Source of the DNA: Chondrosia reniformis
Taxonomy: Eukaryota; Porifera; Demospongiae; Chondrillida; Chondrillidae
Reading direction: 5' to 3'
Assembly: GCA_947172415.1 (NCBI GenBank)
Contig: OX359202.1
Location: 994,501 to 1,058,500, forward strand
DNA: 64,000 nt
Numbering within the stretch: the stretch's first letter is position 1; every line of letters begins with the position of its first letter. Of this stretch, positions 28,908 to 49,540 are shown piece by piece. The notes under the pieces are model-generated. The model did not search any database, was not told where the DNA came from, and saw nothing but the letters and a program-made list of their open reading frames with translations. A program made the position numbers and the translations under genes.

Positions 28908-29091
28908 AGAGGGGAAACATGAACGGAGCATTACTGTAGCAATTGTAGTTCAGTGGTAGAGCACTGGTATATATAGACATAACCAACTTTAAATTTCCTG
29001 GGTTAGATTCCCAGCAATTGCTTCTTTAATTCATGTTTGAGAATATATTGTTTGCATGTGGTTTAATTATCATTTTAATTAAATTATTCAT
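28908..29091 (+). repeat. tRNA-derived SINE, best-preserved copy
   Basis: After a short leader (AGAGGGGAAACATGAACGG) comes a tRNA-like head at 28939-29021. The acceptor stem GCAATTG pairs with CAATTGC, the D-arm and A-box region is GTTCAGTGGTAGAGC, and the T-arm is CTGGG-TTAGATT-CCCAG with a B box. The anticodon arm region is enlarged (CTGG...ACCA stem with a long loop). A shared unrelated tail of about 70 bp follows, ending AATTATTCAT. It would be transcribed by RNA polymerase III and moved by a LINE elsewhere in the genome. It sits 7 bp beyond the KK1 stop codon. Confidence 0.75.
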
Positions 29092-29097
29092 ATATAG

Positions 29098-31741
29098 TTA
29101 GGGACACATTACAATTAGTTCAGTTTTGTTTGTACAGTTGTTACCTATATAACCACCACACACAAATACTGTATTAGAGTTCAAAGGTACCACACAGGGA
29201 TAGGTACATTCCGTACTAATGTTGCCTACTGCTGTCCATGTGTTCTGTGATGGCTGGTACACAAAAATGTCTGATTTTCCTTTGCCACTACTCTCTGCTC
29301 CCCCAAACAAGACTGGCAGCTTGCTGTTGGTTAACATTGATGATGCAATCAAGGGTGAATCAGCTATCTTCTCCCAAATGACTGGTGATGAATCTCTGCT
29401 CTGCACTGATTGCTGTACTGCACTCCATGGTAACCTCCAATATCTCTTAATGCCTCCCTTTGCAGCATTCACTCCACCTCCTATGTACACATATCCGTCA
29501 GAAGTTGTGACACGACACAAATACAGGGGGTGCGGCAACTTTAGACTTTTCAGAGAGTACCACTGCTTTAATTCTATGTTCAACACTTCTACAGTATTCA
29601 CTTCCACACCTGAACACTGCCCTCCAGCTGCTATGAGAAGGTCTTTTTCGAGTACTGCACTAACCCAACTTCTAGCAGTTGGCATAGGAGGGTAGATTTC
29701 TTCCCATGCTGATTGATGACGGTTAACATACATTGCTTCCCAACTATCATTGTATGTAGACAGCTTTCCTGTAACTTTATTTGTTTGTGCATCATTTCCT
29801 CCGATCAGCGTAAGATGACCTTTTATAATGTGTGCCCCGGAAAGGTTTTGTGGAATATCTGAAATTATTTCCCATTTTTGATCATCAATATGGTAGACCT
29901 GCATCACCTTGCAAGATTCCTTATCCAAAAGTCCTCCTGTGATGAAGACCTTGCCATCGATGTAGTGTGCATTGGCAAGACAGACAGCTACTGGCATACT
30001 TGATAGCTCCATTTTAAGATGGTGGTAATGACTTAACAGGAGATCACTCTTGAAACACTACAGAGAGGATTAAATTTTCAAGAATTATAATGATAATATT
30101 GCATGTCACATTAACTGCAGAAGTTATTATATGCCAGACTAGCCAATTGCAAGTGATAATGCAAAGTCTTATCTTGAAGTCCTATTAAAATGGCAACCAG
30201 TGATCACCTCCCGCTCATCCAATTTAGCAGGACTTTAGATAAAACTAGTCACTTGACTGGTCTGATGTAATAGCTACTAGTGGCTATTTATTTGTCCTCC
30301 GATATTTACATATATATATATATATATATAGCATGTATAGCTGCATGATTAGAGATTATATTCATTCAGTAATTATATAATTATATGTCTAAATATGCTA
30401 TAATTTAAGGAATACAGCTTGGGGATCCGGAATGATTATTGACTTATGTAATATCAGCAAGTAAATTTTGGAGATATGTAAAAGAACTTCAAAAGTCTTA
30501 GTATGATGCATAGCACATAATCATATATACATAGACACTACATTTGATTCTAAGGTCATGAATAAATATGTGTAGTAGATATATGAATATATGTACTAAA
30601 TTGTGTTCACTAACGTTAACACTTTCACAATCATTTTTCTGTGTGTTTGGCACTCCCGTAGATGGAATATATACCTCTGTTATATCAGATATCATTAACT
30701 AACAAAAATAAGCATTATAATTGTAAAACAGTTAACAACATAAGTATATTAGCACAGTATATATGATAATCAATTATGTGATATATATATATATTGTCAT
30801 ATATAAATGAAACATCATGAAAATAAGTGTGAATACATAAAACAAGCAATTGCATGGATAACGATTATTAGCTCTATAGGCTTTGTACCCAGCTGCAAAT
30901 TTACCTCAAAATCCAGCAAGGTCTTAATCACATCATGGAGTATGACTATGTCAGGTCTCTTTGTGTAGTCATCCTTCAGGCACAACTTGATCAACGGTTT
31001 AAGAGGATGTTCACTTGACAGTTTGGAAAGATCACCTCTCCGACGCTCCAATTCTGTCGTGACTCCAATACCAACTAGACCACATGTCGGTTCACACTGA
31101 GTAGCAATCTGCAACATCAGCACTCCGAAGGAGAACACATCCACCTTCACACTGAAATGAGAATCACCACTTTTCAGTGCTTCTGGTGGCATGTACACGA
31201 CATTACCGGGAGCAGTAGTGCTCATGTATACGTCTCCATTCTCCAGCAGCTTGGATTGACCGAGGTCGCCCACTTTCACGCTACCGTCTTCACCGATCAA
31301 TACGTTTTTATCCGTCACGTCGCGATGGGCCACGGGAGGATTCCTTTCGTGTAGAAACTTTAGACCAGACAAAATTTTCAGGCATATTTCCAATTGTCTC
31401 TTTCGGCTCAAAGTACCGCGATTTCGACTGAGATACTCACGGAGATTCTCCTTCATTCGTTCTAGAACCAACATGGGCTCGCCGGTCCTGCTTTCGAAGG
31501 CACCGTACGATTTGACGATATTGGGGTGGTCCTCGAGACTGGCTAGAAGCTGACATTCTCTGATGAAATCCTCGAGAGGTTTACCTCGAGCTATCTCACT
31601 GTGGAGAGTTTTCACTGCTACAGGGCGACCATTAAATTCTCCTTCTCGTACAGCACCATAAGCTCCTCGTCCAAGTTCTTTGAAAGAAAGTTTCAAGCTA
31701 ACAGGGCATATTGGGAGCCGTAGTCGTCTATAGCTAGCCAT
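29098..31741 (-). CDS. KK1: kinase-kelch fusion protein
   Basis: Three phase-0 exons: 30905-31741 (kinase, 279 codons), 30615-30698 (linker, 28 codons) and 29098-30057 (kelch), giving about 626 aa. The kinase has GRGAYGAV, VAVK (Lys 44), a helix-C Glu, HRDVTDKN, a DLG in place of DFG, and PPE in place of APE. The family is nearest to tyrosine-kinase-like or other soluble kinases. The kelch part has six double-glycine blades (FITGG, LTLIGG, LIAAGG, VYIGG, PVLFGG, VFVCGG) and ends TELIVMCP. No signal peptide or membrane segment, so it is probably cytosolic. Its kelch exon is the most diverged of the four copies while the kinase stays almost identical. The donor after the kinase exon (GTAAAT) is weak. 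Joining kinase to kelch is inferred from splice sites and phase. Confidence 0.75.
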
Positions 31742-31871
31742 CTATATCGAGTGATCTGTTTATTAGACCTGCATGCATGGGCTATAGGACATATCAAAAA
31801 TGAAACCGTGCATGTTAAATGTAGGGAAGACACTTTGTATGTATATATATACTAACATGCAAATATTGAAG

Positions 31872-32045
31872 CATATGCATGTGCCAAGGATTCACAAAAC
31901 ATCAAGATAAAGAATAAGACAAAAACTCCTAGGATCGCTGATGAAGGGTAAAATTCCCAGAAACAGCTGTCTGACCCAGTGGAGAAGAAGATGAAAGAAA
32001 GGAAAAGAAAGATTCCTGTATCTTCATCCAATTAGCTCTCTCCAT
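31872..32045 (+). repeat. R1 copy upstream of KK1
   Basis: AGGATCGCTGATGAAGGG, CAGAAACAGCTGTCTGACC and CTTCATCCAATTAGCTCTC blocks. The 3' end is lost. Confidence 0.65.
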
Positions 32046-32779
32046 GTATATACACCTACCTATATATAGAATCACTTCTACAATACAGATGAAAATGGAA
32101 AAAATAACTGATACAGATCCATAACTATACTCACTTTCAAAAAAATATAACAGCATCCAGTTTCACCAAAACCTAAGTGTTTACAGAATTATATAATAGA
32201 ATCGATTATAGAATTCTATAAACATTGTTTTGTTGTTTTGATGTATACATCTTTAATAGAAAATGTTTTTTTCTTTTCAATTTAGATTTGCTATATATGT
32301 GTATACTCATATATATATATATAGGAATAAGGAGTGTTATATATTATGCTTGTTTAAATACAATCAAGTACTACACAGTGCAAGTTACAAATTTATACAC
32401 GGATGCAAGTGACTCCCAAGATAATCACACTGAGGTATATAATATAATACGGATGCAAATGACTCCCAAAATAATCACAATCAGGTATATTAAACGCTAC
32501 AAGACTTTAGCCACATCTAAATTCTCAACTGCTGCATACAGAGTAGTAGTCTCTACAGATCATATAAGGTTAAATACATGGCCTTCCAATTACCTTTTCA
32601 CACCTAAGTATAGACTGAAGATGATGCATCTGCATGCCATTATCAGCAAAAATTCCAGTCTCATGCAGGGGATCTCAGCCAATAATCACCGCAGATTTGA
32701 CTTGCCTTGAGTGTCAGCTAGGAGTACCATTGGTTGCTTGCATGCATTCACATAAAGGTTGGTGTGGTGCACTCTAATC

Positions 32780-33045
32780 ATGATATTGATATTGATATAT
32801 ACCTTATACCTCAACTATTATACTCAACACTTCCTATTATATAACTCTGTCAAATGGTAAATATAAAGTTTAAACTTGGTGTCTACATAAATTTACCCTA
32901 TCTCTCACAATACATTTTCTTAATACAATGAACATTTAGTGCTTAAACTTGGTGTCTACACTCACAGACATGTATGAAACATTTCGAAACAGTTTTCTAC
33001 ATAAATTTACCCAATCTCTTACCATACATTAACTAACCCTAATTG
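32780..33045. repeat. Diverged units of the ~170-bp tandem repeat
   Basis: Contains ACAGACATGTATGAAACAT, TAAACTTGGTGTCTACA and AATTTACCCTATCTCTC strings shared with the array at 34130-35105. Separated from it by about 1.1 kb of other sequence. Confidence 0.7.
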
Positions 33046-33388
33046 CGTAATACTATAAATGGCCGACCTTGAGTAGGTGTAAGAGCGAAAATGCGGTACT
33101 GTATATATTTCTGAAAAAATAGAACTCTTTGAAAGATTTCTTATACACATGGATATGCACTGTGTAGTACTTGATTTTTGTTGAAGCAGTATCTATCCAC
33201 ATATATATTATATGGATGTCGTTAAAGTGAAATTTTGCCGATCGATGGCCAACGAAATTCCAAAGAAAAAAAGTTGGACCATACCGAACGCTACCATCCA
33301 CGACGCTCAGAGGCCGGGATCGGTGGTAACGCTCTGCCGAGTTGAGCTTTGGGTGTCACTTGCGTGAGAAGAACCAGTTCTTCTCGAT

Positions 33389-33571
33389 ATGGCCGACTCA
33401 TATGAATCCTTAAAGATATCAGATGCCAATCCCACATTACGTGGAACCCCCCCGAAATCCGGATTATTGGTGAGCACGTCTCTATGGCACCAACCGATTA
33501 GGAGACAGCTTCAGAGTCTAAGCGCTACCAACCCCTATGGGAACCGCTACCACCATAGAGATGTGTCCAGG
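33389..33571 (+). CDS. Orphan candidate first exon
   Basis: An ATG opens 61 codons (MADSYESLKISDANPTLRG, with RGTPPKSG and YGNRYHHRDVSR) ending in TCCAG and a good donor GTAGGC. The local CpG-rich composition fits an expressed 5' exon. No later exon was found in the next 2.3 kb, which is mostly tandem repeats. In the other array units the segment divergent to the kinase gene is CDC20-like, and the NRYHHRDVS string faintly recalls the CDC20 C-box region (DRYIP-RS). That match is too weak to name it. Confidence 0.3.
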
Positions 33572-34129
33572 TAGGCCTACTTTATAAGGTTTTGCGCTTC
33601 TATTTAAACAAGAAAATTTCAAAAGGAAACGATTGTGGTTGGCGCAATTCCATACTTAAGAATAGGGTATTTGCGAGAAAAATGTAGTCAAATTATATCA
33701 AGCTAATTCGGGATGAGTGCATCGTTCCAAGCCATTTTAAAGGTATATCCAGTATTCGTGGTTCATCTAGAAACTGGGAAAAATGGATAGAATCCTGTAA
33801 GTGTCTTGATTGGCGGAGGAGACCAACTTTTCTGGTCCCATGTAGAAACGACTTTAGCGAGAGGTGTTCCGATATGAACGTAAACAGGTATAACCAGCTA
33901 CGCTCAATCTCAATTGCAGTAATAACATAATGGCTACCTGCATCTATGTAAAGACCTTCTGACAGCTGCGTTCTGGACTGTCCCTGCGTGTTTCTAGTTG
34001 CCCCATTCATGTCAAAACATTTTAACTTGGTATGCCGATAATTTGCATAATAGTATCGCACGATATATATGCTACACCATTTAAGGTCGTATAGTAGAAA
34101 TTTAATGTACATTAGAGCGCTGTAGCTCT

Positions 34130-35105
34130 GTCAAACAGAGAGATATGAAACTGAAACATTGTGTAAGTATTCAAAGAGATGTATGAAAGGCTTCCAATGA
34201 ATTTTACAAATTTTCATATCTACTCAAATTTGCCCTATCTCTCGCCATACATTAACTTTGTATAGCAGTAATTGAAAGTACATTTATGGCTCTAACTCTG
34301 CCAAATGAAGAGATATGGATCTGAAACTCTATATCAGTATTCACAGACATGTATGACACATTTCCAAACAGTTTTAGAAATTTGATTTCTACATAAATTT
34401 GCCATATCTCTCCCCATACATTAACTTAACAAATGTACATTTAGTGCCGTAACACTGTCAATTCGGTAAATATGAAGCTTAAACCATTCACAGACATGTA
34501 TGAAACATTTCCAAACAGTTTTAGAATTTTGATTTCTACATATATTTGCCCTATCTCTCCTCATACATTAACTTAATATACAATACAATGTACATTTAGT
34601 GCCGTAACTCTGTCAAATGGTTAAATATATATGAAGCTTAAACTTGATGTCTACATTCACAGACATGTATGAAACATTTCCAAACAGTTTTAGAAATTTT
34701 AATTTCTACTTAAATTTGCCCTATCTCTCCCCATACATTAACTTATAATTAACAAATATACATTTAGTGTCGTAACACTGTCAATTTAGTAAATATATAT
34801 ATATGAAGCTTAAACTTGGTGTCTACATTCACAGACATGTATGAAACATTTCCAAACAATTTTCAAAATTTTGATTTCTAAATAAATTTACCCTATCTCT
34901 CTCCATACATCAACTTAACAAATGTACATTTATATATATAATTAGTGCCGTAACTCTGTCAATTCGGTAAATATGAAGCTTAAACTTGGTATCTACATTC
35001 ACAGACATGTATGAAACATTTCCAAACAGTTTTAGAAATTTTGATTTCTACATATATTTGCCCTATCTCTCCCCATACATTAATTTTCTTAATATATACA
35101 ATGTA
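34130..35105. repeat. ~170-bp tandem repeat array
   Basis: About six units spaced 147-172 bp (landmark CACAGACATGTATGAAACAT at about 34342, 34489, 34658, 34830 and 35000). Each includes TTTCCAAACAGTTTTAGAAA, TTGCCCTATCTCTCC and CATTTAGTGCCGTAAC. The unit is satellite-like in length but the array is short. Confidence 0.85.
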
Positions 35106-35142
35106 CATTTAGTCTTGTATATATACATGAAAGATATATATA

Positions 35143-35391
35143 CTAGAGAACAATAAAAATTTTCTACAAAAATAGTGAAGATGTAGGGATGGCACAAAAA
35201 GCATAGAAACAAGAAAGGGATGTTACACAGTGAAGCATTAGCTATATATGCATGAATCATACAACACCCTTGCTTGTAGGATTCATGCATAGCTAATGCT
35301 TCACTGTGTAACATCCCTTTCTTGTTTCTATGCTTTTTGTGCCATCCCTACATCTTCACTATTTTTGTAGAAAATTTTTATTGTTCTCTAG
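35143..35391. mobile_element. Near-perfect long inverted repeat (fold-back element)
   Basis: Left arm 35143-35258 and right arm 35280-35391 are reverse complements over about 112 bp, differing by one 4-base ATAT insertion. The spacer is only about 22 bp. Ends are CTAGAGAACAATAAAAATTT and its inverse. No coding capacity. It could be a fold-back MITE or a recent inverted duplication, and would make a long hairpin RNA if transcribed. Confidence 0.85.
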
Positions 35392-35943
35392 TTTCTGTAC
35401 TTTTTATGGAGCATAAGCTAGGAATTCGTTGTATTTTAAACCACTTTGGTTTCGCAATCTTCGACTGATTATGACGTCATTAAAATGGCGAATTTATTGA
35501 GGTCTTGACTCTTGAGCCATGAAAACTGTCATACTCAATAATAGCGTTATCGCTCTCGCTTCTACAAAAGAATACAGCTCGGAAAATTTAGAGTAATTTC
35601 GATTAAGAAGTAGTCCGAAGGCTTATTTCGTTTTTTAGTTACAGCAGGCGAAGAAGATGAAGAAGAAGAAGATGAAGAAGAAGAAAACGAAAATGGGAGA
35701 TTTCAAAGTTCGTTCATTTGCCAACGATACACGGTCGCTTGCCTTCAAGGCCAATTTATAGCATGTTTGTTCTATATTTAACTCTACATAGTCTCGTTTT
35801 GGCGATTTTCAGCCTAATTCGGAATTTTGCTCCTATACCAATGTATGGGGAAAACGAAACAACCCGTACCATCCCTACATAGAGAGTACTACCGTACTCT
35901 CTGATATACATGCAGCTATATAATTATATTATATAACCACACA

Positions 35944-36229
35944 GAAGTGAGGGTCATTGTGAGGTGTTGGTAGCTCAAGGCTTCCCCCAGAACCAGTTGG
36001 TCCTCCTCCAGTACCCCCCCTGCAGTGTGTGGCCGAGTTGAAGGGACACGAGGGAAGGATACTGCACACTTCCCTCTCCCCAGATGGGACTACAGTGGCC
36101 TCAGTTGGAGCTGATGAGACACTGAGGCTGTGGAAGTGCTTTGCTGGTCAACCTGATGGAGCTGTGACTCATTTCTCTTCAAATAAGAAGAGATTGGACA
36201 ATCATCTAGTGTCACTTTTAGCATGTTAA
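35944..36229 (+). pseudogene. CDC20-like fragment A (last exon only)
   Basis: Matches the last exon of copies B and C from inside that exon onwards: [38 protein letters not shown], as in the CDC20 C-terminal WD40 blade. The sequence upstream of about 35944 is unrelated, so this marks the left breakpoint of the duplication. The end differs from copy B (no RF stop). It converges on KK2. Confidence 0.8.
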
Positions 36230-36365
36230 GATAAAGTTTGGAATTGTCTAGTTCTTTTTAAGGTTTTGAATAACATTCATTTCAATCACTGAGGGGATTT
36301 CCCTATATTTTTCAACTCCTTAGTGTAATTCGAATATCAATCTCTGTTACAAAACTGTATAAAAA

Positions 36366-39300
36366 TTACAAACACATTGTAAGTAGTTCAGTTTTGTTTG
36401 TACAACATTTGTTACCTATAAAACCACCACATACAAATACTGCACCAGAGTTAACAGATACTACACATGGTCTAGTACATTCCGTACTAATGTTGCCTAC
36501 TGCTGTCCATCTCTTCTGAGTTGGGTCATACACAAAAATGTCTGATCTTGTTTTGCCATCCACTCCTCCAAACAAGACTGGCAGCTTGCTATTGGGTAAG
36601 AGAGATGATCCAAAAAATGGTGAATCAGCTATCTTCTCCCAAGTGACTGGTGATGATGTATTATCTCTGCTCTGTACTGACTGTTGTACTGCACTCCACG
36701 GCAACCTCCAATAACTCTTAGTTGGCTTCTGTGCAGCATTGATTGCTCCTCCTATATACACATATCCACTGGAAATAGTCATATCACAGAAATATATCGG
36801 TTCCGTTAATTGTAGACTCTTCAGAGAGTACCACTGCTTTGATTCTGTGTTTAACACTTCAACTGTACTCACTACTGCACCAGCACACCATCCACCAGCT
36901 GTGATCAAAAGGTTATCTTCAAGTGCTACTCCTAACCAAAATCTAGGTGTTGGCATAGGAGGATAGATTTCTTCCCAATGATCATTAACATATGTAGACA
37001 GCTTTCCTGTATCTTTACAAGTAACTGTATCCCTTTGAATTCCTCCAATCAGTGTCAGATGACCTTGAATAATGTCTGCTCCACATTGGTATTGTGGGAG
37101 ATCTGAAATTGTGGTCCATTTCTGATCATCAATATGGTAGACCTGCATCACCTTACAAGAGGATTTATTACCTAGAAGTCCTCCTGTAACGAAGACCTTA
37201 CCATCAAGGTAGTGTGCACTTGCACCCCAAACAGCTACTGGTATATCTGGTAAGTTTGATTTAAGAAAGTGATGACCACTTAAGAGGAGATCACTCCTGA
37301 AACACTACAAAACAGAAATTATATTCATTTGCAAGCTTTCAATATTACATTATAATTTATATTATGTATACATTTAAATTACAATATTAATATTATATCA
37401 TTATGGGAAACTACAAAATAAGGTTAACTAAAGAAGTTATACATGTGATATAGCTGTCACTTGTAACTTTAAATAACACTATTATATGTTCACTTACGTT
37501 ATTACTTTCATTGTAGTTCTGTTTCTTTGACACTTCATGAGGAGAGATCTGTACTGCTACCATGTCAGATATCAGTAACTAGAGATTGCACAATCATTAC
37601 AGTAAATAGTTATAAGGTGATAACAAGTTATACATGGACTGTCTATAACATACAAGTATACATGTAGTTAATATAAAAACCTGAAATATACTTGTTCGTT
37701 GGTACATGTCAGTGGCAGATTTTAGAAAGGGCGGTTCCAAATTTCTGAATTCTGCTGCTTTCTGTTGCTCATCCTACGCCACGATGTGCACGTTTAAAAG
37801 TGCATGGGACTGATCGATAAATAATAATTTACGTCTATATTGCGTTATTGATTATGTAATGCATAATGGCGAGAATAATACATACAGCAGTAGAGGAGTG
37901 ACTCGCTGCCGCATTTGAATAGGTCGTATAAACTGTCTTTGTAATATTATAGATTATTGAATTGAATTATTATTATTTCCGCTACAGTAATTCAGCCTGT
38001 AAGTTCTTGCTCTTGTACTTACGAAAGCCAACTTACAGGCAAAAGGGGAGCTCCTTTGCACCCCTGGATCGATCCCCCCTAGATCTGCCACTGCATGTAC
38101 CAGTATGATAGACAATATGGACTTTATTCGAAAAATTGAAAAAACAGGAGATTGCAAATTTGGTTAAATTATAATATGGAGAGGTGAATCACATGACTTT
38201 CATACACTATACAATCAGATACTTGTATATATGTCCAGTCATTTGGAGTTAAATACTGAATCAAACCATAGAAGACCATACAATATTATGCAGTATAGAT
38301 GGTCTATGGTTAATGGACAATTATCCAAAGGTGTAGAGGTATGTGGCAGTCGGCTGCAAAGTGAAGATACTTCTACAGTTACACCATCATAGCCATGGAT
38401 TGTCAAAGGAAATAAACAGGCAGACAATGTACATGTAGCAATGTGACAGACAATAAATATATCCATCTTGACCTTATTTGGAAAATGAGAGCAGGATTGG
38501 GAAATCATATATACAGTTTAACACACTCAATAACTATTCTTGACAACATATTAACATCTTCTTACTTCAGTTTCATCAAGTTGCTGAATCAGATGAAACA
38601 GTGTCTTTATCAGGTCATGGACTATTCTGACATCAGGTCTGTTCTTGTAGTCATCCTTCAGACACCACTCTATCAACGGCTTAAGAGGATGTTCACTTGG
38701 CAGTTTGGAAAGATCACCTCTCCGACGCTCCAACTCTGGTACAGATCCAATGTTCATCAGACCACATATTGGTTGGCACTGAGTAGCAATCTGTAACATC
38801 AGCACTCCCAAGGAGAACACATCCACCTTCACACTGAAATGAGAATCGTCACTTTTCAGTGCTTCTGGTGGCATGTACACGACATTACCAGGAGCAGTAG
38901 TGCTCATGTATACGTCTCCGTTCTCCAGCAGTTTGGATTGGCCGAGGTCGCTCACTTTCACGCTACCGTCTTCACCGATCAACACATTTTTATCCGTCAC
39001 GTCGCGATGGGCCACGGGAGGATTCATTTCGTGAAGAAACTTTAGACCAGACGAAATTTTCAGACATATTTCCAATTGGCTCTTTCGGCTCAAAGTACCG
39101 CGATTTCGACTGAGATACTCACGGAGATTCTCCTTCATTCGTTCTAGAACCAACATGGGCTCACCGGTCCTGCTTTCGAAGGCACCGTACGATTTGACGA
39201 TATTGGGGTGGTCCTCGAGACTGGCTAGAAGCTGACATTCTCTGATGAAATCCTCGAGAGGTTTACCTCGAGCTATCTCACTGTGGAGAGTTTTCACTGC

Positions 39301-39417
39301 TACAGGGCGACCATTAAATTCTCCTTCTCGTACAGCACCATAAGCTCCTCGTCCAAGTTCTTTGGAAGAAAGCTTCAAGTTAACAGGGCATTTTGGGAGC
39401 CGTAGTCGTTTAGCCAT
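36366..39417 (-). CDS. KK2: kinase-kelch fusion protein
   Basis: Exons 38566-39417 (284 codons), 37498-37578 (27 codons) and 36366-37304 (312 codons and stop) join in phase 0 for about 623 aa. Kinase landmarks: GRGAYGAV 22-29, catalytic Lys 42, Glu 60, HRD 137-139, Asn 144, DLG 157-159, PPE 183-185. These residues predict catalytic activity. The linker is LLISDMVAVQISPHEVSKK. The propeller has six blades, from FVTGGLLG to VFVCGGFIG. The linker-kelch donor (GTAAGT) and acceptor (TTTTGTAG) are strong. Intron 1 carries a hAT-like MITE at 37710-38093. Within 250 bp upstream and divergent lies CDC20-like copy B. Nearly identical to KK3 except in the last half of the kelch exon. Confidence 0.8.
37710..38093. 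mobile_element. Non-autonomous hAT-like MITE in KK2
   Basis: Inverted ends CAGTGGCAGATTTTAGA and CTAGATCTGCCACTG, typical of hAT elements. 384 bp without coding capacity. Flanked by CATGT on both sides, a possible 5-bp target duplication. The same insertion is present in KK3 and absent from KK1 and KK4. Confidence 0.7.
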
Positions 39418-39659
39418 ACTTTACGATCGACAGAGTGGGAGCGTTGTACAAGATATCAGTTACTATATATGCATACCTTTGTATATATAGTCAGTAAAAA
39501 TGTTTGTGCCCTATATCTCCTCCCACATGTACACATGTACATCTTCCCAAAGTATGTACGTAGGATGTCGACTTTTAGAGCTGCTGCGTCTATATAAAGA
39601 TGCAGTTTTGTTCTCTTGAGTGACATATCATATATTGTACATTTTATGCAACACAAATT

Positions 39660-41429
39660 ATAAATATAAAAACAATATAAAAGTGGGAGTGAACGGCGGA
39701 TCACGAGACACATCGAGACATCTTTGCGGTTCCCTACTGGAGCTCTCTCTGCAAGCAGCAGTTGCATAAGGACTCCTAAATCTCCATCAGTAAAGAGGAA
39801 GAGATTGAGAACTGTTCCCACTACAGCAGATCGTATACTGGACGCACCGGAAACAACAGATGACTTTTGTAAGTTGCAATCATTTTATAAAGCAATTTAA
39901 AAGTCTAAATCTAAAGTGTGCTGTATATATAAGTGTTTATTTCACGACTATTCTTACTTCGTCCAATAATTACAGTAGGACGTTAATTATTATTATAAGT
40001 GTGCAGATATTTAGCTGCATGTAAAAGTGTTTCACTGTAAATTACAGTTATCCAAACACCCTCCGGTTCGGATAATCGATTTCCTACTTTATCAGGGTTT
40101 CTTTCAGGCAATTTGCCCCCCCCCCTTGCTAAATACTCTGAAAGAAATTGCAGATAATTAGCTGTATAAGTGTATATTTCACAAATATATCTTTCCTTCA
40201 TCCTCATATCCAGACATAAACACTCTGGACTGGTGCAGTGCTAATCTGTTGGCTGTGGCACTGGGTAGTGTAGTGTACGTGTGGAATGCTGACACCAGCT
40301 CCATCAAGGAGCTCTGTCGGACTGGATTCACCTCTCAGTACATCACTGCTGTTAAGTGCGACCAAAGTGGTAGACTGTTGGCAGTAGCCACAAGTGATGG
40401 TGAAATACAAGTGAGAGTTGTGTAATCTCAGTTACCATGGTGATATCACCAGAAATGGAATTTATTTATTTATTTTCTTGTAACTCTTCAGATTTGGAAT
40501 GTTAAACAGTCAAAGAAGGTCCGGTCCTGTCAGTCCCATTCTGCCAGAGTTGCCTGTTTAGACTGGAACAAGCTAAGATGTTACTGGCCTCCAGTTCAAG
40601 AAGTGGAGAAGTGCACATTTGCAAGAACATGCTTGTAGAGACTGTGAAAGGACACAAACATGAGGTGTGTGGACTAAAGTGGTCGCCCAACGGTCGCTAC
40701 CTTGCCAGTGGAGGTAATGACTGCCTAGTCCAGGTATGGGACACTTGTGGGAGGAGTCCCTGGACCACTTCCAAGCACACCTTCAAGGAGCACAAGGCAG
40801 CAGTCAAAGTGAGTGTTTTGTCACATTCAAGTGTGTGAGATATAGTACGAGTGACTAGTCCTTCTGATGTGAAAGATTGTTATAACTTTCAATTTGAATG
40901 TTTTGTTACGTTTATACTGAAAATAAACCATTTGTTGGTTACTATGACAACCCCTTAATGTTCCTTTGTCCATGTCAGGCCCTCTCCTGGTGTCCTTGGC
41001 AGTTGAATCTTTTGGCTACCGGAGGAGGTAGCTCAGATAAGACAGTCACGTTCTGGAATGTCACATCTGGACAGTGCATGGACAGGCTCACTACAGATTC
41101 ACAAGTGAGCAAAGATAACACTTGTACCTCATATAACACTACCCTCTCCCCCATCCCTCTGGTGTGTTGTGACTTCTTCTCTTCCTCCCATCCAACAGGT
41201 GTCAGGAGTGTTGTGGAGTGAGGGTCATCGTGAGGTGTTGGTAGCTCAAGGCTTTCCCCAGAACCAGTTGGTCCTCCTCCAGTACCCCTCCCTGCAGTGT
41301 GTGGCCGAGTTGAAGGGACATGAGGGAAGGATACTGCACACTTCCCTCTCCCCAGATGGGACTACAGTGGCATCAGTTGGAGCTGATGAGACACTGAGGC
41401 TGTGGAAGTGCTTTGCTGGTCGATTTTAA
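39660..41429 (+). pseudogene. CDC20-like copy B, probably broken
   Basis: CDC20 activates the anaphase-promoting complex. Five exon-like blocks with good splice sites: about 39660-39868, 40214-40410, 40492-40808, 40979-41104 and 41199-41429. They read RILDAPETTDDFY, NTLDWCSANLLAVALG, QSHSARVACLDWNK, EVCGLKWSPNGRYLASGGND, ALSWCPWQLNLLATGGGSSD and [11 protein letters not shown], clearly CDC20 WD40 repeats. No start codon or C-box/KEN N terminus is visible. A 5-base insertion (CTAAG) after the DWNK codons shifts the frame, and copy C shares it. Copy B also lacks 12 bases present in C and has C for W in AVKCD. Introns are retained, so it arose by DNA duplication, not retroposition. Convergent with KK3, divergent from KK2. 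Confidence 0.8.
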
Positions 41430-41526
41430 CCTGATGGAGCTGTGACTCATTTCTCTTCAAATAGGAAGAGATTAAACAATCATCTAGTGTCACCTTTTAG
41501 CATGTTAAGATAAAGTTTGGAATTGT

Positions 41527-41715
41527 TGAGTTTCTGTAGTGTTATGAAACAAGAATTTAATGGCGTTTCGGTCCACGAAACTACATCAGTGGAACGCCAC
41601 TTTATATACATGTTTTGGGTTGTTACTCATAAATATATACTCGTGTGATGTACAGTTTATTCAGTAAAATTAATACGTATGTATGTACTTGCATTCTTTC
41701 AATAATTGACTTTTT
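41527..41715. mobile_element. Recent insertion with a hairpin, between CDC20 copy B and KK3
   Basis: Units A and C run straight through this point (GGAATTGT joined to CTTTTTAAGG-like sequence), while unit B carries about 190 extra bases. The insert holds GGCGTTTCGGTCCAC and GTGGAACGCC, which form a stem with an internal loop. Read on the minus strand it contains CTGATGT and CGAAACG, again hammerhead-like. Confidence 0.5.
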
Positions 41716-41819
41716 AAGGTTTAAATAACATTCATTTCAATCACCCAGGGAATTCCCTATATTTTTCAACTCCTTAGTGTAATTCAAATATCAATCTCTG
41801 TTACAAAACTGTATAAAAA

Positions 41820-44800
41820 TTACAAACACATTGTAAGTAGTTCAGTTTTGTTTGTACAACAGTTGTTACCTATAAAACCACCACATACAAATACTACATT
41901 AGAGTTAATAGATACTACACATGGTCTAGTACATTCTGTACTAATGTTGCCTACTGCTGTCCATCTCTTCTGAGTTGGGTCATACACAAAAATGTCTAAT
42001 CTTGTTTTGCCATCCCATCCTCCAAACAAGACTGGCAGCTTGCTGTTGGGTAAGAGAGATGATGCAATAAATGGTGAATCAGGTATCTTCTCCCAAGTGA
42101 CTGGTGATGATGTATTATCTCTGCTCTGTACTGACTGTTGTACTGTACTCCACGGTAACCTCCAATATTTCTTAGTTGACTTCTTAGCAGCATTGTTTCC
42201 TCCTCCTATATACACATATCCACTGGAAATAGTCATATCACATAAATATATAGGTTCTGGTAACTGTAGATTCTTCGGAGAGTACCACTGCTTTGATTCT
42301 GTGTTTAACACTTCAACTGTACTCACTACTGCACCAGCACACCATCCACCAGCTGTGATCAAAAGGTTATCTTCAAGTGCTACTCCTAACCAAAATCTAG
42401 GTGTTGGCATAGGAGGATAGATTTCTTCCCAATGATCATTAACATATGTAGACAGCTTTCCTGTATCTTTACAAGTAACTGCATCCCTTTGAATTCCTCC
42501 AATCAGTGTCAGATGACCTTGAATAATGTCTGCTCCACATTGGTATTGTGGGAGATCTGAAATTGTGGTCCATTTCTGATCATCAATATGGTAGACCTGC
42601 ATCACCTTACAAGAGGATTTATTACCTAGAAGTCCTCCTGTAACGAAGACCTTACCATCAAGGTAGTGTGCACTTGCATCATAAACAGCTACTGGTATAT
42701 CTGGTAAGTTTGTTTTAAGAAAGTGATGACCACTTAAGAGGATATCACTCCTGAAACACTACAAAACAGAAATTATATTCATTTGCAAGCTTTCAATATT
42801 ACATTATAATAATTGGTATTATGTATACATTTAAATTACAATATTAATATTATATCATTATGGGAAACTACAAAATAAATAAGGTTAACTAAAGAAGTTA
42901 TACATGTGATATAGCTGTCACTTGTAACTTTAAATAACACTATTATATGTTCACTTACGTTATTACTTTCATTGTAGTTCTGTTTCTTTGACACTTCATG
43001 AGGAGAGATCTGTACTGCTACCATGTCAGATATCAGTAACTAGAGATTGTGCAATCATTACAGTAAATAGTTATAAGGTGATAACAAGTTATACATGGAC
43101 TGTCTATAACATACAAGTATACATGTAGTTAATATAAAAACCTGACATATACTTGTTCGTTGGTACATGTCAGTGGCAGATTTTAGAAAGGGTGGTTCCA
43201 AATTTCTGAATTCTGCTGCTTTCTGTTGCTCATCCTACGCCACGACGTGCACGTTTAAAAGTGCATGGGACTGATCGATAAATAATAATTTACGTCTATA
43301 TTGCGTCATTGACTACGTAATGCATAATGGCGAGAATAATACATACAGCAGTAGAGGAGTGACTCACTGCCGCATTTGAATAGGTCGTATAAACTGTCTT
43401 TGTAATATTATAGATTATTGAATTGAATTATTATTATTTCCGCTACAGTAATTCAGCCTGTAAGTTCTTGCTCTTGTACTTACGAAAGCCAACTTACAGG
43501 CAAAAGGGGAGCTAGCTCCTTTGCACCCCTGGATCCCGCCCTAGATCTGCCACTGCATGTACCAGTATGATAGACAATATGGACTTTATTCGAAAAATTG
43601 AAAAAACAGGAGATTGCAAATTTGGTTAAATTATGAATATGGAGAGGTGAATCACATGACTTTCATACACTATACAATCAGATACTTGTATATATGTCCA
43701 GTCATTTGGAGTTAAATACTGAATCAAACCATAGAAGACCATACACTATTATGCAGTATAGATGGTCTATGGTTAATGGACAATTATCCAAAGGTGTAGA
43801 GGTATAATTAAATGTGGCAGTCGGCTGCAAAGTGAAGATCCTTCTACAGTTACACCATCATAGCCATGGATTGTCAAAGGAAATAAACAGGCAGACAATG
43901 TACATGTAGCAATGTGACAGACAATAAATATATCTATCTTGACCTTATTTGGAAAATGACAGCAGGATTGGGAAATCATATATACAGTTTAACACACTCA
44001 ATAACTATTCTTGACAACATATTAACATCTTCTTACTTCAGTTTCATCAAGTTGCTGAATCAGATGAAACAGTGTCTTTATCAGGTTATGGACTATTTTG
44101 ACATCAGGTCTGTTCTTGTAGTCATCCTTCAGACACAACTCTATCAACGGCTTAAGAGGATGTTCACTTGGCAGTTTGGAAAGATCACCTCTCCGACGCT
44201 CCAACTCTGGTACAGATCCAATGTTCATCAGACCACATGTTGGTTGGCACTGAGTAGCAATCTGCAACATCAGCACTCCCAAGGAGAACACATCCACCTT
44301 CACACTGAAATGAGAATCGTCACTTTTCAGTGCTTCTGGTGGCATGTACACGACATTACCAGGAGCAGTAGTGCTCATGTATACGTCTCCGTTCTCCAGC
44401 AGTTTGGATTGACCGAGGTCGCTCACTTTCACGCTACCGTCTTCGCCGATCAATACATTTTTATCCGTCACGTCGCGATGGGCCACTGGAGGATTCCTTT
44501 CGTGAAGAAACTTTAGACCAGACGAAATTTTCAGACATATTTCCAATTGTCTCTTTCGGCTCAAAGTACCGCGATTTCGACTGAGATACTCACGGAGATT
44601 CTCCTTCATTCGTTCTAGAACCAACATGGGCTCGCCGGTCCTGCTTTCGAAGGCACCGTACGATTTGACGATATTGGGGTGGTCCTCGAGACTGGCTAGA
44701 AGCTGACATTCTCTGATGAAATCCTCGAGAGGTTTACCTCGAGCTATCTCACTGTGGAGAGTTTTCACTGCTACAGGGCGACCATTAAATTCTCCTTCTC

Positions 44801-44888
44801 GTACAGCACCATAAGCTCCTCGTCCAAGTTCTTTGGAAGAAAGCTTCAAGTTAGCAGGGCATTTTGGGAGCCGTAGTCGTTTAGCCAT
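41820..44888 (-). CDS. KK3: kinase-kelch fusion protein
   Basis: Exons 44037-44888 (284 codons), 42959-43039 (27 codons) and 41820-42758 (312 codons and stop), all phase 0, about 623 aa. I chose the start MAKRLRLPKC at 44888 because KK2 and KK4 begin there. An upstream in-frame ATG adds 19 unsupported residues. The kinase differs from KK2 at about seven residues (for example RKRQLE for RKSQLE) with all catalytic residues kept. The kelch exon differs from KK2 mainly in its last 430 bp, where more than 30 base changes are clustered, against about 1% in the introns. Carries the same hAT-like MITE as KK2. Flanked by CDC20-like copies B (convergent) and C (divergent). Confidence 0.8.
43171..43555. 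mobile_element. Non-autonomous hAT-like MITE in KK3
   Basis: Same element, same site and same ends as in KK2 (CAGTGGCAGA / TCTGCCACTG), so it was copied with the gene. Differs from the KK2 copy by a few substitutions and small indels. Confidence 0.7.
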
Positions 44889-45129
44889 ATACTTTACGAT
44901 CGACAGAGTGGGAGCGTTGTACAAGATATCAGTTACTATATGCATACCTTTGTATATATAGTCAGTAAAAATGTTTGTGCCCTATATCTCCTCCCACATG
45001 TACACATGTACATCTTCCCAAAGTATGTAGGATGTCGACTTTTAGAGCTGCTGCGTCTATATAAAGATGCAGTTTTGTTCTCTTGAGTGAGTCATATGTA
45101 CATATCATATATTGTACATTTTATGCAAC

Positions 45130-46800
45130 ACAAATTATAAATATAAAAACAATATAAAAGTGGGAGTGAACGGCGGATCACGAGACACATCGAGACATCT
45201 TTGCGGTTCCTAACTGGAGCTCTCTCTGCAAGCAGCAGTTGCATAAGGACTCCTAAATCTCCATCAGTAAAGAGGAAGAGATTGAGAACTGTTCCTACTA
45301 CAGCAGATCGTTAATTATTATTATAAGTGTGCAGATATTTAGCTGCATGTAAAGGTGTTTCACTGTAAATTACAGTTATCCAAACACCCTCCGGTTCGGA
45401 TAATCGATTTCCTACTTTATCAGGGTTTCTTTCAGGCAATTTGCCCCCCCCCCGTTGCTAAATACTCTGAAAGAAATTATTTATTATTAAATAGCAATCT
45501 AAAGTATGCAGATAATTAGCTGTATAAGTGTATATTTCACAAATATATCTTTCCTTCATCCTTGTATCCAGACATAAACACTCTGGACTGGTGCAGTGCT
45601 AATCTGTTGGCTGTGGCACTGGGTAGTGTAGTGTACGTGTGGAATGCTGACACCAGCTCCATCAAGGAGCTCTATCGGACTGGATTCACCTCTCAGTACA
45701 TCACTGCTGTTAAGTGGGACCAAAGTGGTAGACTGTTGGCAGTAGCCACAAGTGATGGTGAAATACAAGTGAGAGTTGTGTAATCTCAGTTACCATGGTG
45801 ATATCACCAGAAATGGAATTTATTTATTTTCTTGTAACTCTTCAGATTTGGAATGTTGAACAGTCAAAGAAGGTCCGGTCCTGTCAGTCCCATTCTGCCA
45901 GAGTTGCCTGTTTAGACTGGAACAAGCTAAGATGTTACTGGCCTCCAGTTCAAGAAGTGGAGAAGTGCACATTTACAACACCAGAGCAAGGAACATGCTT
46001 GTAGAGACTGTGAAAGGACACAAACATGAGGTGTGTGGACTAAAGTGGTCGCCCAACGGTCGCTACCTTGCCAGTGGAGGTAATGACTGCCTGGTCCAGG
46101 TATGGGACACTTGTGGGAGGAGTCCCTGGACCACTTCCAAGCACACCTTCAAGGAGCACAAGGCAGCAGTCAAAGTGAGTGTTTTGTCACATTCAAGTGT
46201 GTGAGATATAGTACGAGTGACTAGTCCTTCTGATGTGAAAGATTTGTTATAACTTTCAATTTGAATGTTTTGTTACGTTTATACTGAAAATAAACCATTT
46301 GTTGGTTACCATGACAACCCCTTAATGTTCCTTTGTCCATGTCAGGCCCTCTCCTGGTGTCCTTGGCAGTTGAATCTTTTGGCTACCGGAGGAGGTAGCT
46401 CAGATAAGACAGTCAAGTTCTGGAATGTCACATCTGGACAGTGCATGGACAGGCTCACTACAGATTCACAAGTGAGCAAAGATAACACTTGTACCTCATG
46501 TAACACTACCCTCTCCCCCATCCCTCTGGTGTGTTGTGACTTCTTCTCTTCCTCCCATCCAACAGGTGTCAGGAGTGTTGTGGAGTGAGGGTCATCGTGA
46601 GGTGTTGGTAGCTCAAGGCTTTCCCCAGAACCAGTTGGTCCTCCTCCAGTACCCCTCCCTGCAGTGTGTGGCCGAGTTGAAGGGACACGCGAGGGAAGGA
46701 TACTGTACACTTCCCTCTCCCCAGATGGGACTACAGTGGCCTCAGTTGGAGCTGATGAGACACTGAGGCTGTGGAAGTACTAGTGCTTTGCTGGTCGATT
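45130..46800 (+). pseudogene. CDC20-like copy C, broken
   Basis: Same block order as copy B with very high identity. It has lost about 146 bp between GCAGATCGT and CGTTAATTATT, which removes the RILDAPETTDDF end of the first block and its donor. It shares the CTAAG frameshift with B and has a further 2-base insertion in the last exon (GGACACGCGAGGG for GGACACGAGGG) plus a small insertion near TGGAAGTACTAG. It keeps ITAVKWD where B has C. Divergent from KK3, convergent with KK4. Confidence 0.85.
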
Positions 46801-47098
46801 TTAACCTGATGGAGCTGTGACTCATTTCTCTTCAAATAAGAGATTGGATAATCATCCAGTGTCATGGTTCACCTTTTAGCATGTTAAGATATATATGGTG
46901 TTTGGAATTGTCTATAATTATATAGTTCTTTTAAGATTTTAATATAACACAAATTTCAATTACCAATGGATCTCCCTGGATTTTTCCACTCCTTATAGTG
47001 TAAGTTATCAGTTGTAATAAGTGCATACGTAAAATTTGTACATGTTTGTACATTAATATCAATCTCTATATATTACATTCAAAACTGTATATTACAAA

Positions 47099-49540
47099 TT
47101 AACACATTACAAAAAGTTCAGTTTTGCTTGAACAACTGTCGTTTTCTATAGAACCACCACATACAAATACTTTATTAGAGTTAATAGGTAGTACACAAGG
47201 ATAAGTACATTCTTTACTAATGTTGCCTACTGCTGTCCATCTCTTCTGAGTTGGGTCATACACAAAAATGTCTGATCTTCCAATATTATTAATATTATCT
47301 TTTCCTCCAAACAAGACTGGCAGCTTGCTGTTGAGTAAGAGAGATGATCCATCAAATGGTGAATCAGGTATCTTCTCCCAAGTGACTGGTGATGATGTAT
47401 TATCTCTGCTCTGTACTGACTGTTGTACTGCACTCCACGGTAACCTCCAATAACTCTTAGTTGGCTCCTCTGCAGCATTCCCTCCTCCTCCTATATACAC
47501 ATATCCACCGGAAATAGTCATATCACATAAAAATATCGGTTCCGTTAATTGTAGACTCTTCAGAGAGTACCACTGCTTTGATTCTGTGTTTAACACTTCA
47601 ACTGTACTCACTACTCTCACTGTATCAGCACACCATCCACCAGCTGTGATCAAAAGGTTATCTTCAAGTGCTACTCCAAATATACCTCTAGGTGTTGGCA
47701 TAGGAGGGTAGATTTCTTCCCAATGATCATTAACATATGTAGACAGCTTTCCTGTATCTTTACGAGTAACTGTATCCCTTCCTCCAATCAGTGTCAGGTG
47801 ACCTTGTATAATGTCTGCTCCACACCAGTATTGTGGGATATCTGAAATTGTGGTCCATTTCTGATCATCAATATGGTAGATCTGTATCATCTTGCAAGGG
47901 TCACCATTACCTAGAGCTCCTCCTATAATGAAGACCTTACCATCAAGGTAGTGTGCACTTGCATCATAAACAGCTACTGGCATATCTGGTAAGTTTGATT
48001 TAAGAAAGTGATGACCACTTAAGAGGAGATCACTCCTGAAACACTACAAAACAGAAAAGATCCAACTCTATAATGTGACTGTAAAATATACATATATACA
48101 TACATACGTACATACGTTTGCACACATTACCAGAGTGTGGCTTCACATGATATACGTATTTTAATTCTTGTGTGATCAGATACAGTTAGACTATGTGTGT
48201 ATGGATAGAAAACACTGTATATAGATCAAAGAGGGTTGGGGAGAGAGGATGTACCAGATGTTAATGATATTCATAGAACACCAAAACTTATCAATACAAT
48301 GGAACCATCACCAATCTATTGAAGCCAATCACGTGACTTTTTGATATACTTATATATAGGTGCTCTACAGTGCATTCGCTTACATTGATACTTTCAATAT
48401 TTACTTTCTTTGACACTTCAAGAGGAGAGATCTGTACTGCTCCCATGTCAGATATCAGTAGCTATATGGAAATGAGGAAAGATAATGATATCAGTACTTA
48501 TATAGTCATAGGGAATGGCTCTTCATAAAGTTGTTACTATTACTCTCTAAGTATGAATGGCTGAAAAAAACATGGCCAACCTTTCTAATGTATTAGAACA
48601 AGTAATTTTAACAAGAAAAAGGTGCAATACAAGTAAATAAAAAGCATTTACATCCTAATGGATATTCCAAGTCAACATGTATACTTACCTCATCATTAGA
48701 GTGTTCTTGTATTGCCGCATACAGTGATTTTATCAGATCATGGACTATTCTAACATCAGGTCTGTTCTTGTAGTCATCCTTCAGACACAACTTGATCAAC
48801 GGCTTAAGAGGATGTTCACTTGACAGTTTGGACAGATCACCTCTCCGACGCTCCAACTCTGGTACAGTACCAATACCAACCAGACCACATGTCGGTTGGC
48901 ACTGAGTAGCAATCTGTAACATCAGAACTCCGAAGGAGAACACATCCACCTTCACACTGAAATGAGAATCGCCACTTTTCAGTGCTTCTGGTGGCATGTA
49001 CACGACATTACCAGGAGCAGTAGTGCTCATGTATACGTCTCCATTCTCCAGTAGTTTGGATTGACCGAGGTCGCTCACTTTCACGCTACCGTCTTCACCG
49101 ATCAATACATTTTTATCCGTCACGTCGCGATGGGCCACGGGAGGATTCCTTTCGTGAAGAAACTTTAGACTAGACGAAATTTTCAGACATATTTCCAATT
49201 GTCTCTTTCGGCTCAAAGTACCGAGATTTAAACTGAGATACTCACGGAGATTCTCCTTCATTCGTTCTAGAACCAACATGGGCTCGCCGGTCCTGCTTTC
49301 GAAGGCACCGTACGATTTGACGATATTGGGGTGGTCCTCGAGACTGGCTAGAAGCTGACATTCTCTGATGAAATCCTCGAGAGGTTTACCTTGAGCTATC
49401 TCACTGTGGACAGTTTTCACTGCTACAGGGCGACCATTAAATTCTCCTTCTTGTACAACACCATAAGCTCCTCGTCCAAGTTCTTTGGAAGAAAGGTTCA
49501 AGTTAACAGGGCATTTTGGAAGGCGTTGTCGTTCAGCCAT
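47099..49540 (-). CDS. KK4: kinase-kelch fusion protein
   Basis: Exons 48689-49540 (284 codons), 48384-48461 (26 codons) and 47099-48043 (314 codons and stop) join in phase 0, about 624 aa. Starts MAERQRLPKCPVNLNL. All kinase landmarks of KK2 are present (GRGAYGVV, VAVK, HRDVTDKN, DLG, PPE). The kinase exon ends HSNDE rather than LDETE. The propeller has an extra loop (GKDNINNIGRSD) in blade five and ends TELFVMC. It lacks the hAT MITE, and its introns have diverged from KK2/KK3 well beyond the exons. It borders CEP170: there is no CDC20 copy upstream, so this may be the oldest member or the right edge of the array. Confidence 0.8.

Follow-up and report, generated by a model that had tools for sequence, protein, structure and literature searches.

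The DNA analysed here (the window), a stretch of 64,000 nucleotides from chromosome 14 of the sponge Chondrosia reniformis, carries kinase-kelch genes on its minus strand between positions 29098 and 49540. The four three-exon loci of the original prediction are all in place: in each of the genes, designated W1 to W4, a kinase exon, a linker exon of 26-28 aa and a kelch exon are joined in phase 0, with predicted products of 626, 623, 623 and 624 aa, respectively. W4 consists of a kinase exon (48689..49540, 284 aa; PF07714, E 2.3e-44), a linker exon with phase 0 on either side (48384..48461, 26 aa) and a kelch exon (47099..48043, 314 aa plus stop); W3, of a kinase exon (44037..44888, 284 aa; E 3.6e-46), a linker (42959..43039, 27 aa) and a kelch exon (41820..42758, 312 aa plus stop); and W2, of a kinase exon (38566..39417, 284 aa; E 2e-45), a linker (37498..37578, 27 aa) and a kelch exon (36366..37304, 312 aa plus stop). 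W1 comprises a kinase exon (30905..31741, 279 aa; E 2.1e-45), a linker (30615..30698, 28 aa) that is the most diverged of the four and was found by pattern search, tblastn with the consensus linker giving no match, and a kelch exon (29098..30057, 319 aa plus stop). A profile search with Pfam recovered both domains at all four loci, namely PK_Tyr_Ser-Thr (PF07714; E 2.3e-44 to 3.6e-46) in the kinase exons, and Kelch_1, Kelch_6 and KLHDC2-type kelch models in the kelch exons. No signal peptide is apparent by eye in the kinase-kelch proteins of about 620 aa, and Pfam found neither BTB/BACK nor an RIPK-type death domain, CARD or ankyrin repeats in the window exons or in the protein of a further locus, L009 (BTB/BACK at E up to 0.1).

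Splice sites were modelled at 28 family loci, that is, the four in the window and 24 elsewhere. In the window, the phase-0 donors of the kinase exons are GTAAGT, GTAAGA or GTAAAT, those after the linker are GTAAGT, GTAAGC or GTTAGT, and the kelch acceptor reads TAG/TGTTTC (the slash marks the exon start). Across the modelled set, an in-frame donor closes the kinase exon at 28/28 loci, and all 27 loci having a kelch match show an acceptor AG in front of the kelch exon, an agreement among predicted sites that is far beyond chance. A complete linker was found by pattern at 23 of the 28 loci and tblastn added a diverged linker at L049 and part of one at L046, with both searches returning none at L031, L038 and L043; the automatic model yields complete three-exon genes at 20/28. 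The fusion is also independent of splice prediction, since the intronless locus L009 holds kinase and kelch within one uninterrupted frame of 615 aa, which provides the best evidence for the kinase-kelch fusion proposed from the window, now strongly supported. As read from the genome, the kinase-linker-kelch architecture is near certain. An additional exon N-terminal to the kinase is unlikely, because an in-frame stop lies within 2 codons before the kinase ATG in 23/26 exons, and within 30 codons in 25/26.

The claim of a complete kinase was confirmed well beyond the window, as the VAxK Lys, the alpha-C Glu, HRD, the catalytic Asn, the Asp of DxG and the PE of APE are kept in all 26 intact window-type exons. 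By these catalytic residues, the window proteins fit the protein kinase superfamily and are predicted kinases. The catalytic loop reads HRDVTDKN in 25 of these exons and HRDVTDRN in the other, and DLG stands in place of DFG in 26/26. The position two residues past HRD is Thr in the family kinases, where Ser/Thr kinases usually carry Lys. Degenerate catalytic motifs were observed in six of 13 distant members examined. When matched by sequence to solved structures, the window kinase retrieved CTR1 first (E 7e-31, 110 bits), followed by ABL1, Nek7 and SYK at about 84-90 bits; for L009, an EGFR entry came first and Nek7 next, with BRAF among the best. The family kinase is TKL-like in sequence, and the group label itself is presumptive. 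For the kinase domain, an AlphaFold2 model built on the four window sequences reached a pLDDT of 36.7 and was set aside.

The genes had been described as a four-gene tandem family expanded locally. The four genes are there, and they belong to a 0.54-Mb cluster on chromosome 14, but the description was too narrow: the family amounts to tens of loci on ten chromosomes, with a second cluster on chromosome 9 and paired matches on eight further chromosomes. Genome-wide, 124 kelch-exon matches were listed, and 55 of them, distributed over ten chromosomes, have a same-strand kinase within 8 kb upstream; kinase and kelch keep the same order and strand within 2.5 kb in 53 listed matches. A same-strand kinase within 8 kb downstream also accompanies 26/124 listed matches, and an opposite-strand kinase accompanies one, as expected from tandem arrays. 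The family thus consists of many clustered paralogs, a trait of germline-diversified recognition families. Broken copies occur as well, with a kinase frameshift in L037 and L052 and an early kelch stop in L045. Kinase and kelch distance matrices correlate over 20 members (r 0.88), a value that stems from the recent cluster; once each clade is represented by a single member (12 in all), r is 0.12 (p 0.24), so that a shared descent of kinase and kelch in the old fusions is unsupported.

The kelch exon of W2, from which the propeller was modelled, carries six GG doublets, one in each repeat, and in structure the model best matches kelch domains that bind peptides, KEAP1 among them; the solved complexes KEAP1/Nrf2, KLHL12/DVL1 and KLHL3/WNK peptides rank with its closest kelch matches. 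These results agree with the six-blade propeller originally proposed, and the kelch exon is, according to the model, a KEAP1-like six-repeat propeller. In the pocket register, which was taken from alignments with other kelch domains, we take the KEAP1 serines to lie at position -15. Using published KEAP1 pocket residues for comparison (PMC6891428), variation was found to be concentrated, repeat after repeat, at loops equivalent to the KEAP1 pocket, and by analogy with KEAP1 we infer that the variable positions may be ligand-binding.

These pocket-equivalent positions differ in all 26 copies compared, with a pN/pS of about 2 against 0.39 in the kinase exon. At the variable positions, nonsynonymous (N) changes make up 306/355 on chromosome 14 (p 1.3e-6 against the site-share expectation), 85/95 in the chromosome 2 sample (p 1.5e-4) and 52/54 in the chromosome 9 sample (p 4.3e-5), in a test in which multiple changes within a codon count as independent events. 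The tighter positions were chosen on the chromosome 14 data itself, the independent test being chromosomes 2 and 9 only, where the sampled kelch clusters repeat the chromosome 14 variability pattern; on chromosome 2, the +loop class taken singly gave p 0.082. The codon set chosen first (24 codons, -16 to -13), drawn from the KEAP1 register after the sliding-window profile had already been inspected, gave a dN/dS of 1.57 (bootstrap interval 0.95-2.81, with 4.6% of resamples not exceeding 1). By such counting methods, the sequences display an excess of amino-acid change at pocket-equivalent positions. As for the remaining propeller, pN/pS on chromosome 14 was 0.73 with all variable positions removed and 0.88-1.13, varying with kappa, with only -15/-14 removed, and on chromosome 2 it was 1.13. 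Constraint on the rest of the propeller thus appears weak among close paralogs, and relaxed constraint could therefore explain part of the signal. Chromosome 14 introns were dropped as a neutral yardstick, since their mean p-distance of 0.32 hangs on poor alignment.

We give about an even chance to a germline-diversified recognition propeller mounted on a constant kinase output, with an immune or self-recognition role being possible. The propeller would be the recognition end of the protein, and selection would diversify its pocket copy by copy, so that separate copies bind separate peptides or proteins, with the kinase held constant as the output common to all of them. Ligand binding, or clustering on ligand, may switch the kinase on or deliver the ligand as substrate. 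The likeliest setting would be intracellular recognition of microbial, viral or non-self molecules, by analogy with clustered germline-diversified receptors, and an immune context is possible on the same grounds. Of the sensor or scaffold propeller put forward in the original prediction, the sensor part, an inferred function, gains support from the pocket-equivalent diversification, and the control of the kinase by the propeller is putative.

Diverging endogenous partners would produce equal pocket diversification, and the closest solved kelch matches hold endogenous partners (Nrf2, DVL1, WNK peptides); the proteins might thus be substrate-recruiting kinases whose propellers dock varied endogenous substrates, diversified by partner and devoid of foreign recognition. 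We consider this rather unlikely, as pockets differing in every copy, N-biased change and closely similar kinases look more like the response to a moving target than to fixed endogenous substrates. Birth-and-death expansion under relaxed constraint, with recent duplicates drifting at tolerant surface loops, would account for the frameshifted and truncated copies and for a propeller that beyond its variable sites is weakly constrained and, on chromosome 2, not constrained at all; neutral drift, however, should give none of the N excess observed on chromosomes 14, 2 and 9, and the retention of catalytic residues in all intact kinase exons also makes this account improbable. The fusion itself would be illusory in the window if kinase-only and kelch-only transcripts alternated in tandem, and at all four loci the kinase frame can indeed run past its donor to a stop in the first intron. 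Against separate transcripts stand the one-frame fusion at L009, the conservation of phase-0 sites and linker across loci, the constant order and strand of the 53 closely spaced matches, and window kelch exons that open at the conserved acceptor without an ATG, which together leave this arrangement extremely unlikely.

Related kelch exons are also found outside the kinase fusion. At L010, one lies behind an exon encoding a Death domain, the two forming a plausible gene, and about 95 further kelch matches on chromosome 2 are mostly without an assigned partner. A same-strand Death match within 8 kb upstream was found for 8/55 chromosome 2 kelch exons (shifted-position control: mean 1.8, p 0.0145); among 69 kinase-less kelch exons, Death matches were as frequent downstream (10) as upstream (8), and for this reason the Death domain was not accepted as their general partner. 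At three chromosome 2 kelch loci examined, no 5' exon was found and the kinase profile had no match in the 7.5-8 kb upstream. As separate observations, a CARD frame near L028 scored 28.8 bits (cut-off 23.9) and an AIG1-like frame in L018 scored 23.4 bits, under its cut-off of 27. It is possible, as a tentative extension, that the kelch propeller, encoded by a single phase-0 exon, is a general recognition module that is diversified in the germline and coupled to various outputs in intracellular non-self or self recognition; the outputs would be the kinase, for 55 listed kelch matches, and the Death domain, for at least one plausible gene. If true, this module would be a propeller-based counterpart to leucine-rich-repeat receptors.

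Sponges host dense bacterial communities, and the cellular discrimination of partners from threats is poorly known in them. A constant kinase with a copy-specific pocket would supply concrete, testable candidate recognition proteins, for which binding screens can begin at once because each residue position of the pocket has been specified, and the kelch propeller, mainly known as a fixed adaptor, would be usable as a diversified binding surface. Beyond a simple four-gene cluster, the family points to diversified internal sensors of a kind not yet described. The genes that respond to microbial patterns in two other sponges include, in either species, a "Kelch motif containing gene", excerpts of the source giving no link to the present kinase-kelch family (PMC6208332). 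The view that the architecture had gone undescribed stands insofar as searches of an open-access paper library listed, by title and abstract opening, no paper on a kelch-kinase family; it is qualified by a figure legend naming Kelch among the domains of choanoflagellate and filasterean Eph-like kinases, the carrier protein being unspecified there (PMC6993872). These Eph-like kinases would share with the sponge family a kinase and a kelch motif in one protein; their layout is that of a receptor, in which the other domains stand before the kinase, whereas the sponge proteins are predicted soluble kinases with a C-terminal propeller, and excerpts of that paper hold no expanded kelch-kinase family (PMC6993872).

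The kelch propeller fold is common to the family and to KEAP1 and other BTB-kelch (KLHL) proteins, and the variable positions map to the loops of the KEAP1 pocket residues; in the family, a kinase stands in place of BTB/BACK. To our knowledge, diversified KEAP1-type pockets have no precedent. Among TKL kinases such as plant CTR1 and RAF, CTR1 is the best solved match of the window kinase, and the family differs from them in the Thr of HRDVTDKN, in DLG and in the appended kelch. Members of the RIPK family combine a kinase with a death domain or CARD; the sponge proteins similarly join a kinase of similar kind to a putative recognition or assembly domain, and the kelch of L010 follows a Death exon, but the partner of the family kinase is a propeller instead of a death fold. 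NLRs and plant resistance genes form clustered paralogs, with intact beside broken copies and change concentrated at binding positions. The sponge family has these features in common with them, the binding positions being putative, and its recognition surface would be the pocket of a kelch propeller, in contrast to the leucine-rich repeats of NLRs and plant resistance genes.

The four minus-strand loci at 29098-49540 of the window (C14:994501-1058500; genes 1-4) had been predicted to encode kinase-linker-kelch proteins of about 625 aa, and this layout was recovered in full: a kinase frame is followed by a kelch frame in 4/4 loci, both domains are confirmed by Pfam, and the intervening DNA gives the order kinase, phase-0 intron, linker, phase-0 intron and kelch, for predicted proteins of 623-626 aa. 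The first intron spans 206-997 bases and the second 193-557 bases; the linker exon has 26-28 codons (opening LLISDMGAVQISP in gene 4), and the kelch exons begin with CFRSD or CFKSD. In 28 family loci modelled from the searched genome (117,379,552 bases in 15 contigs), the kinase exon is always closed by an in-frame donor, all 27 loci with a kelch match have an acceptor AG ahead of the kelch exon, and the full linker was recognized by pattern in 23; tblastn added a linker in L049 and a partial one in L046, and neither search found one in L031, L038 and L043. Complete gene models were obtained from 20 of these loci; L037 and L052 are broken copies with a kinase frameshift, the L045 kelch has an early stop, and no kelch was found beside L043. 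Furthermore, the fusion model does not rely on splice prediction alone, since L009 (C12:6488000-6492500) is a single unbroken frame of 615 codons with a full kinase and a full kelch domain, 54% and 31% identical, respectively, to those of gene 3. Many C14 copies (e.g., L031, L033 and L035) also have in common, 60 bases before the kinase ATG, a short, imperfect tandem repeat around TCGTGATCAGCCGTTCACTCCCAC; it stops just before TCGTAAAGTATG and might belong to the core promoter or 5' leader.

Other features occupy the same region. CDC20/Fizzy-type WD40 exons (40162-41429 and 45520-46783) and a remnant (~35946-36083) lie on the plus strand, all as partial model matches; a recent ~5.5-kb tandem duplication (~97% identity) took in the exons as well as genes 2 and 3. 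An inverted repeat at 35063-35468, found again at L019:5193-5474 and encoding the same peptide on both strands, is possibly a small transposon. A tRNA-like gene (28938-29024; 42.5 bits with the Rfam tRNA model) lies directly 3' of gene 1 on the opposite strand; ARAGORN assigns it no amino acid and reports a four-base anticodon.

The kinase was expected to be complete, and the Lys, Glu, HRD, Asn and Asp residues are indeed conserved in 26/26 intact window-type exons, with DLG as magnesium motif and a catalytic loop reading HRDVTDKN in 25 and HRDVTDRN in one. Ser/Thr kinases carry the loop HRDxKxxN and tyrosine kinases the AAR motif; HRDVTDKN is unusual, matching neither. Among solved proteins, CTR1 matches best. 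Thirteen more distant members were examined, and six of them, the dispersed loci L020, L021, L023, L025, L026 and L027, have degenerate motifs (HGN, FHD, HLG, NFG and similar); judging by these motifs, they may be pseudokinase-kelch genes.

The C14:595-1139 kb interval holds a cluster of full-length kinase matches with 87-100% identity; a second kinase subfamily (44-50% identity) is clustered at C9:5.03-5.30 Mb. After merging fragments by hand, 128 rows yielded 124 kelch matches. Kelch and kinase matches alike were drawn from the best-scoring candidates, so the copy numbers are at least those counted. A same-strand kinase lies within 8 kb upstream of 55 of them, a few being fragments (C14, 28; C9, 12; C7, 5; C4, C1 and C12, 2 each; C5, C11, C13 and C2, one each). 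Within 2.5 kb of the listed kelch matches, kinases are found upstream in 53 cases, downstream on the same strand in 4 and on the opposite strand in none; within 8 kb the counts are 55, 26 and 1, as expected from tandem arrays. The other 69 matches (55 on C2) lack such a neighbor among the 135 kinase matches listed. The best 101 kelch matches to a C2 query span 100% to 54% identity, 96 being on C2 by hand count. Two oppositely oriented kinase-kelch loci at C14:635500-649600 score equally to both queries, which points to either a recent duplication with inversion or an artefact of the assembly.

The phase-0 acceptor opens the kelch exon next to more than one kind of partner. L010:6660-8538 lies 11 kb from the intronless L009, and an in-frame join, read by eye, is possible there between a Death-domain exon (PF00531, 26.4 bits; cut-off, 22.6), a short exon and a kelch exon. 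In L028, the kelch exon has a CARD frame 3.3 kb upstream. These two loci suggest that kelch is a recognition module combined with several outputs. A systematic test for Death-domain partners of kelch exons was not convincing. Matches on C2, located mainly at 0.77-4.0 Mb (e.g., L015:7560-8462 and L056-L065), mostly lack an adjoining kinase among those listed; in the 13 C2 exons sampled, the hypervariable loop positions are those seen in the window family, and a search of three loci found no N-terminal partner. At L018:3549-8006, a long frame whose weak similarity to AIG1 (GIMAP) falls short of the Pfam cut-off lies upstream of a kelch exon belonging to the C7 cluster; L019:1612-8723 resembles it, the AIG1 similarity having been tested in L018 only.

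Divergence differs between exons, with dN/dS of 0.38 for the kinase versus 0.80 for the kelch at equal dS (0.141 and 0.142), and of 0.66 for the linker at dS 0.238. When the six kelch repeats are aligned by their GG doublets, variation is highest at -15, -14, +2, +4, +6 and +7; mean entropy is 0.04-0.29 bits for the -4 to -1 strand and both GG positions, versus 1.71 and 2.05 bits at -15 and -14. On the propeller model, -15/-14 (residues 72-73) belong to the loop that leads into the blade's first strand, with strands 62-67 and 75-79 on either side; +2 to +7 (residues 43-48) belong to the loop linking strands two and three of the blade, flanked by strands 36-40 and 53-57. The 12-residue strings at -15/-14 are distinct in 26/26 C14-type copies.

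Selection was assessed on two position sets. The first, -16 to -13 in six repeats, taken from the KEAP1 register with the sliding-window profile already seen, gave entropy of 1.27 versus 0.48 (permutation p = 5e-5) and dN/dS of 1.57 (bootstrap interval 0.95-2.81). The second, -15/-14 and +2/+4/+6/+7, was narrowed using the C14 profile, so the C14 cluster is not independent for it, and those of C2 and C9 are. Counted over disjoint closest pairs, N:S at narrowed positions versus elsewhere was 306:49 versus 494:206 in C14 (26 sequences, 13 pairs; p = 5.7e-9), 85:10 versus 218:60 in C2 (13/96 matches, 6 pairs, five of six repeats; p = 0.01, with the +loop class by itself at p = 0.082) and 52:2 versus 62:28 in C9 (5/12, 2 pairs; p = 2.9e-5). 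N also exceeded the neutral site share (binomial p = 1.3e-6, 1.5e-4 and 4.3e-5 for C14, C2 and C9, respectively), these tests, like the Fisher tests, counting multiple changes per codon as independent and ignoring gene conversion between paralogs. At -15/-14 of C14, pN/pS was 2.0-2.4 across kappa 1-4, and 1.9-2.2 using the 11/12 codons without nearby gaps, compared with 0.39-0.52 for the kinase exon; the propeller outside narrowed positions is weakly constrained (0.73 in C14, 0.66 in C9 and 1.13 in C2).

The family combines a kinase-kelch architecture, a constant kinase and diversified propeller loops. These loops would form a ligand pocket whose putative ligands may differ from copy to copy, with binding acting via the kinase and non-self as the presumed target. 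The main alternative, in which the propeller docks kinase substrates, is compatible with the same data as recognition but fits them less well, as it gives no reason for kinases so similar to one another to carry so many pockets.

In searches of the open-access literature, judged by title and abstract opening, no paper describes a kinase-kelch family or diversified kelch pockets, which, given that scope, is weak evidence of absence; one figure legend, dealing with the Eph-like kinases found in animals' unicellular relatives, names Kelch (PMC6993872). In alignments with kelch domains that have been solved or designed, an R-S pair stands opposite positions -16 and -15 of the window kelch. In KEAP1, a solved peptide-binding propeller, we take Ser508, Ser555 and Ser602 to correspond to position -15. 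These three serines are named as pocket contacts of KEAP1 (PMC6891428); they lie at intervals of 47 residues, one per repeat.
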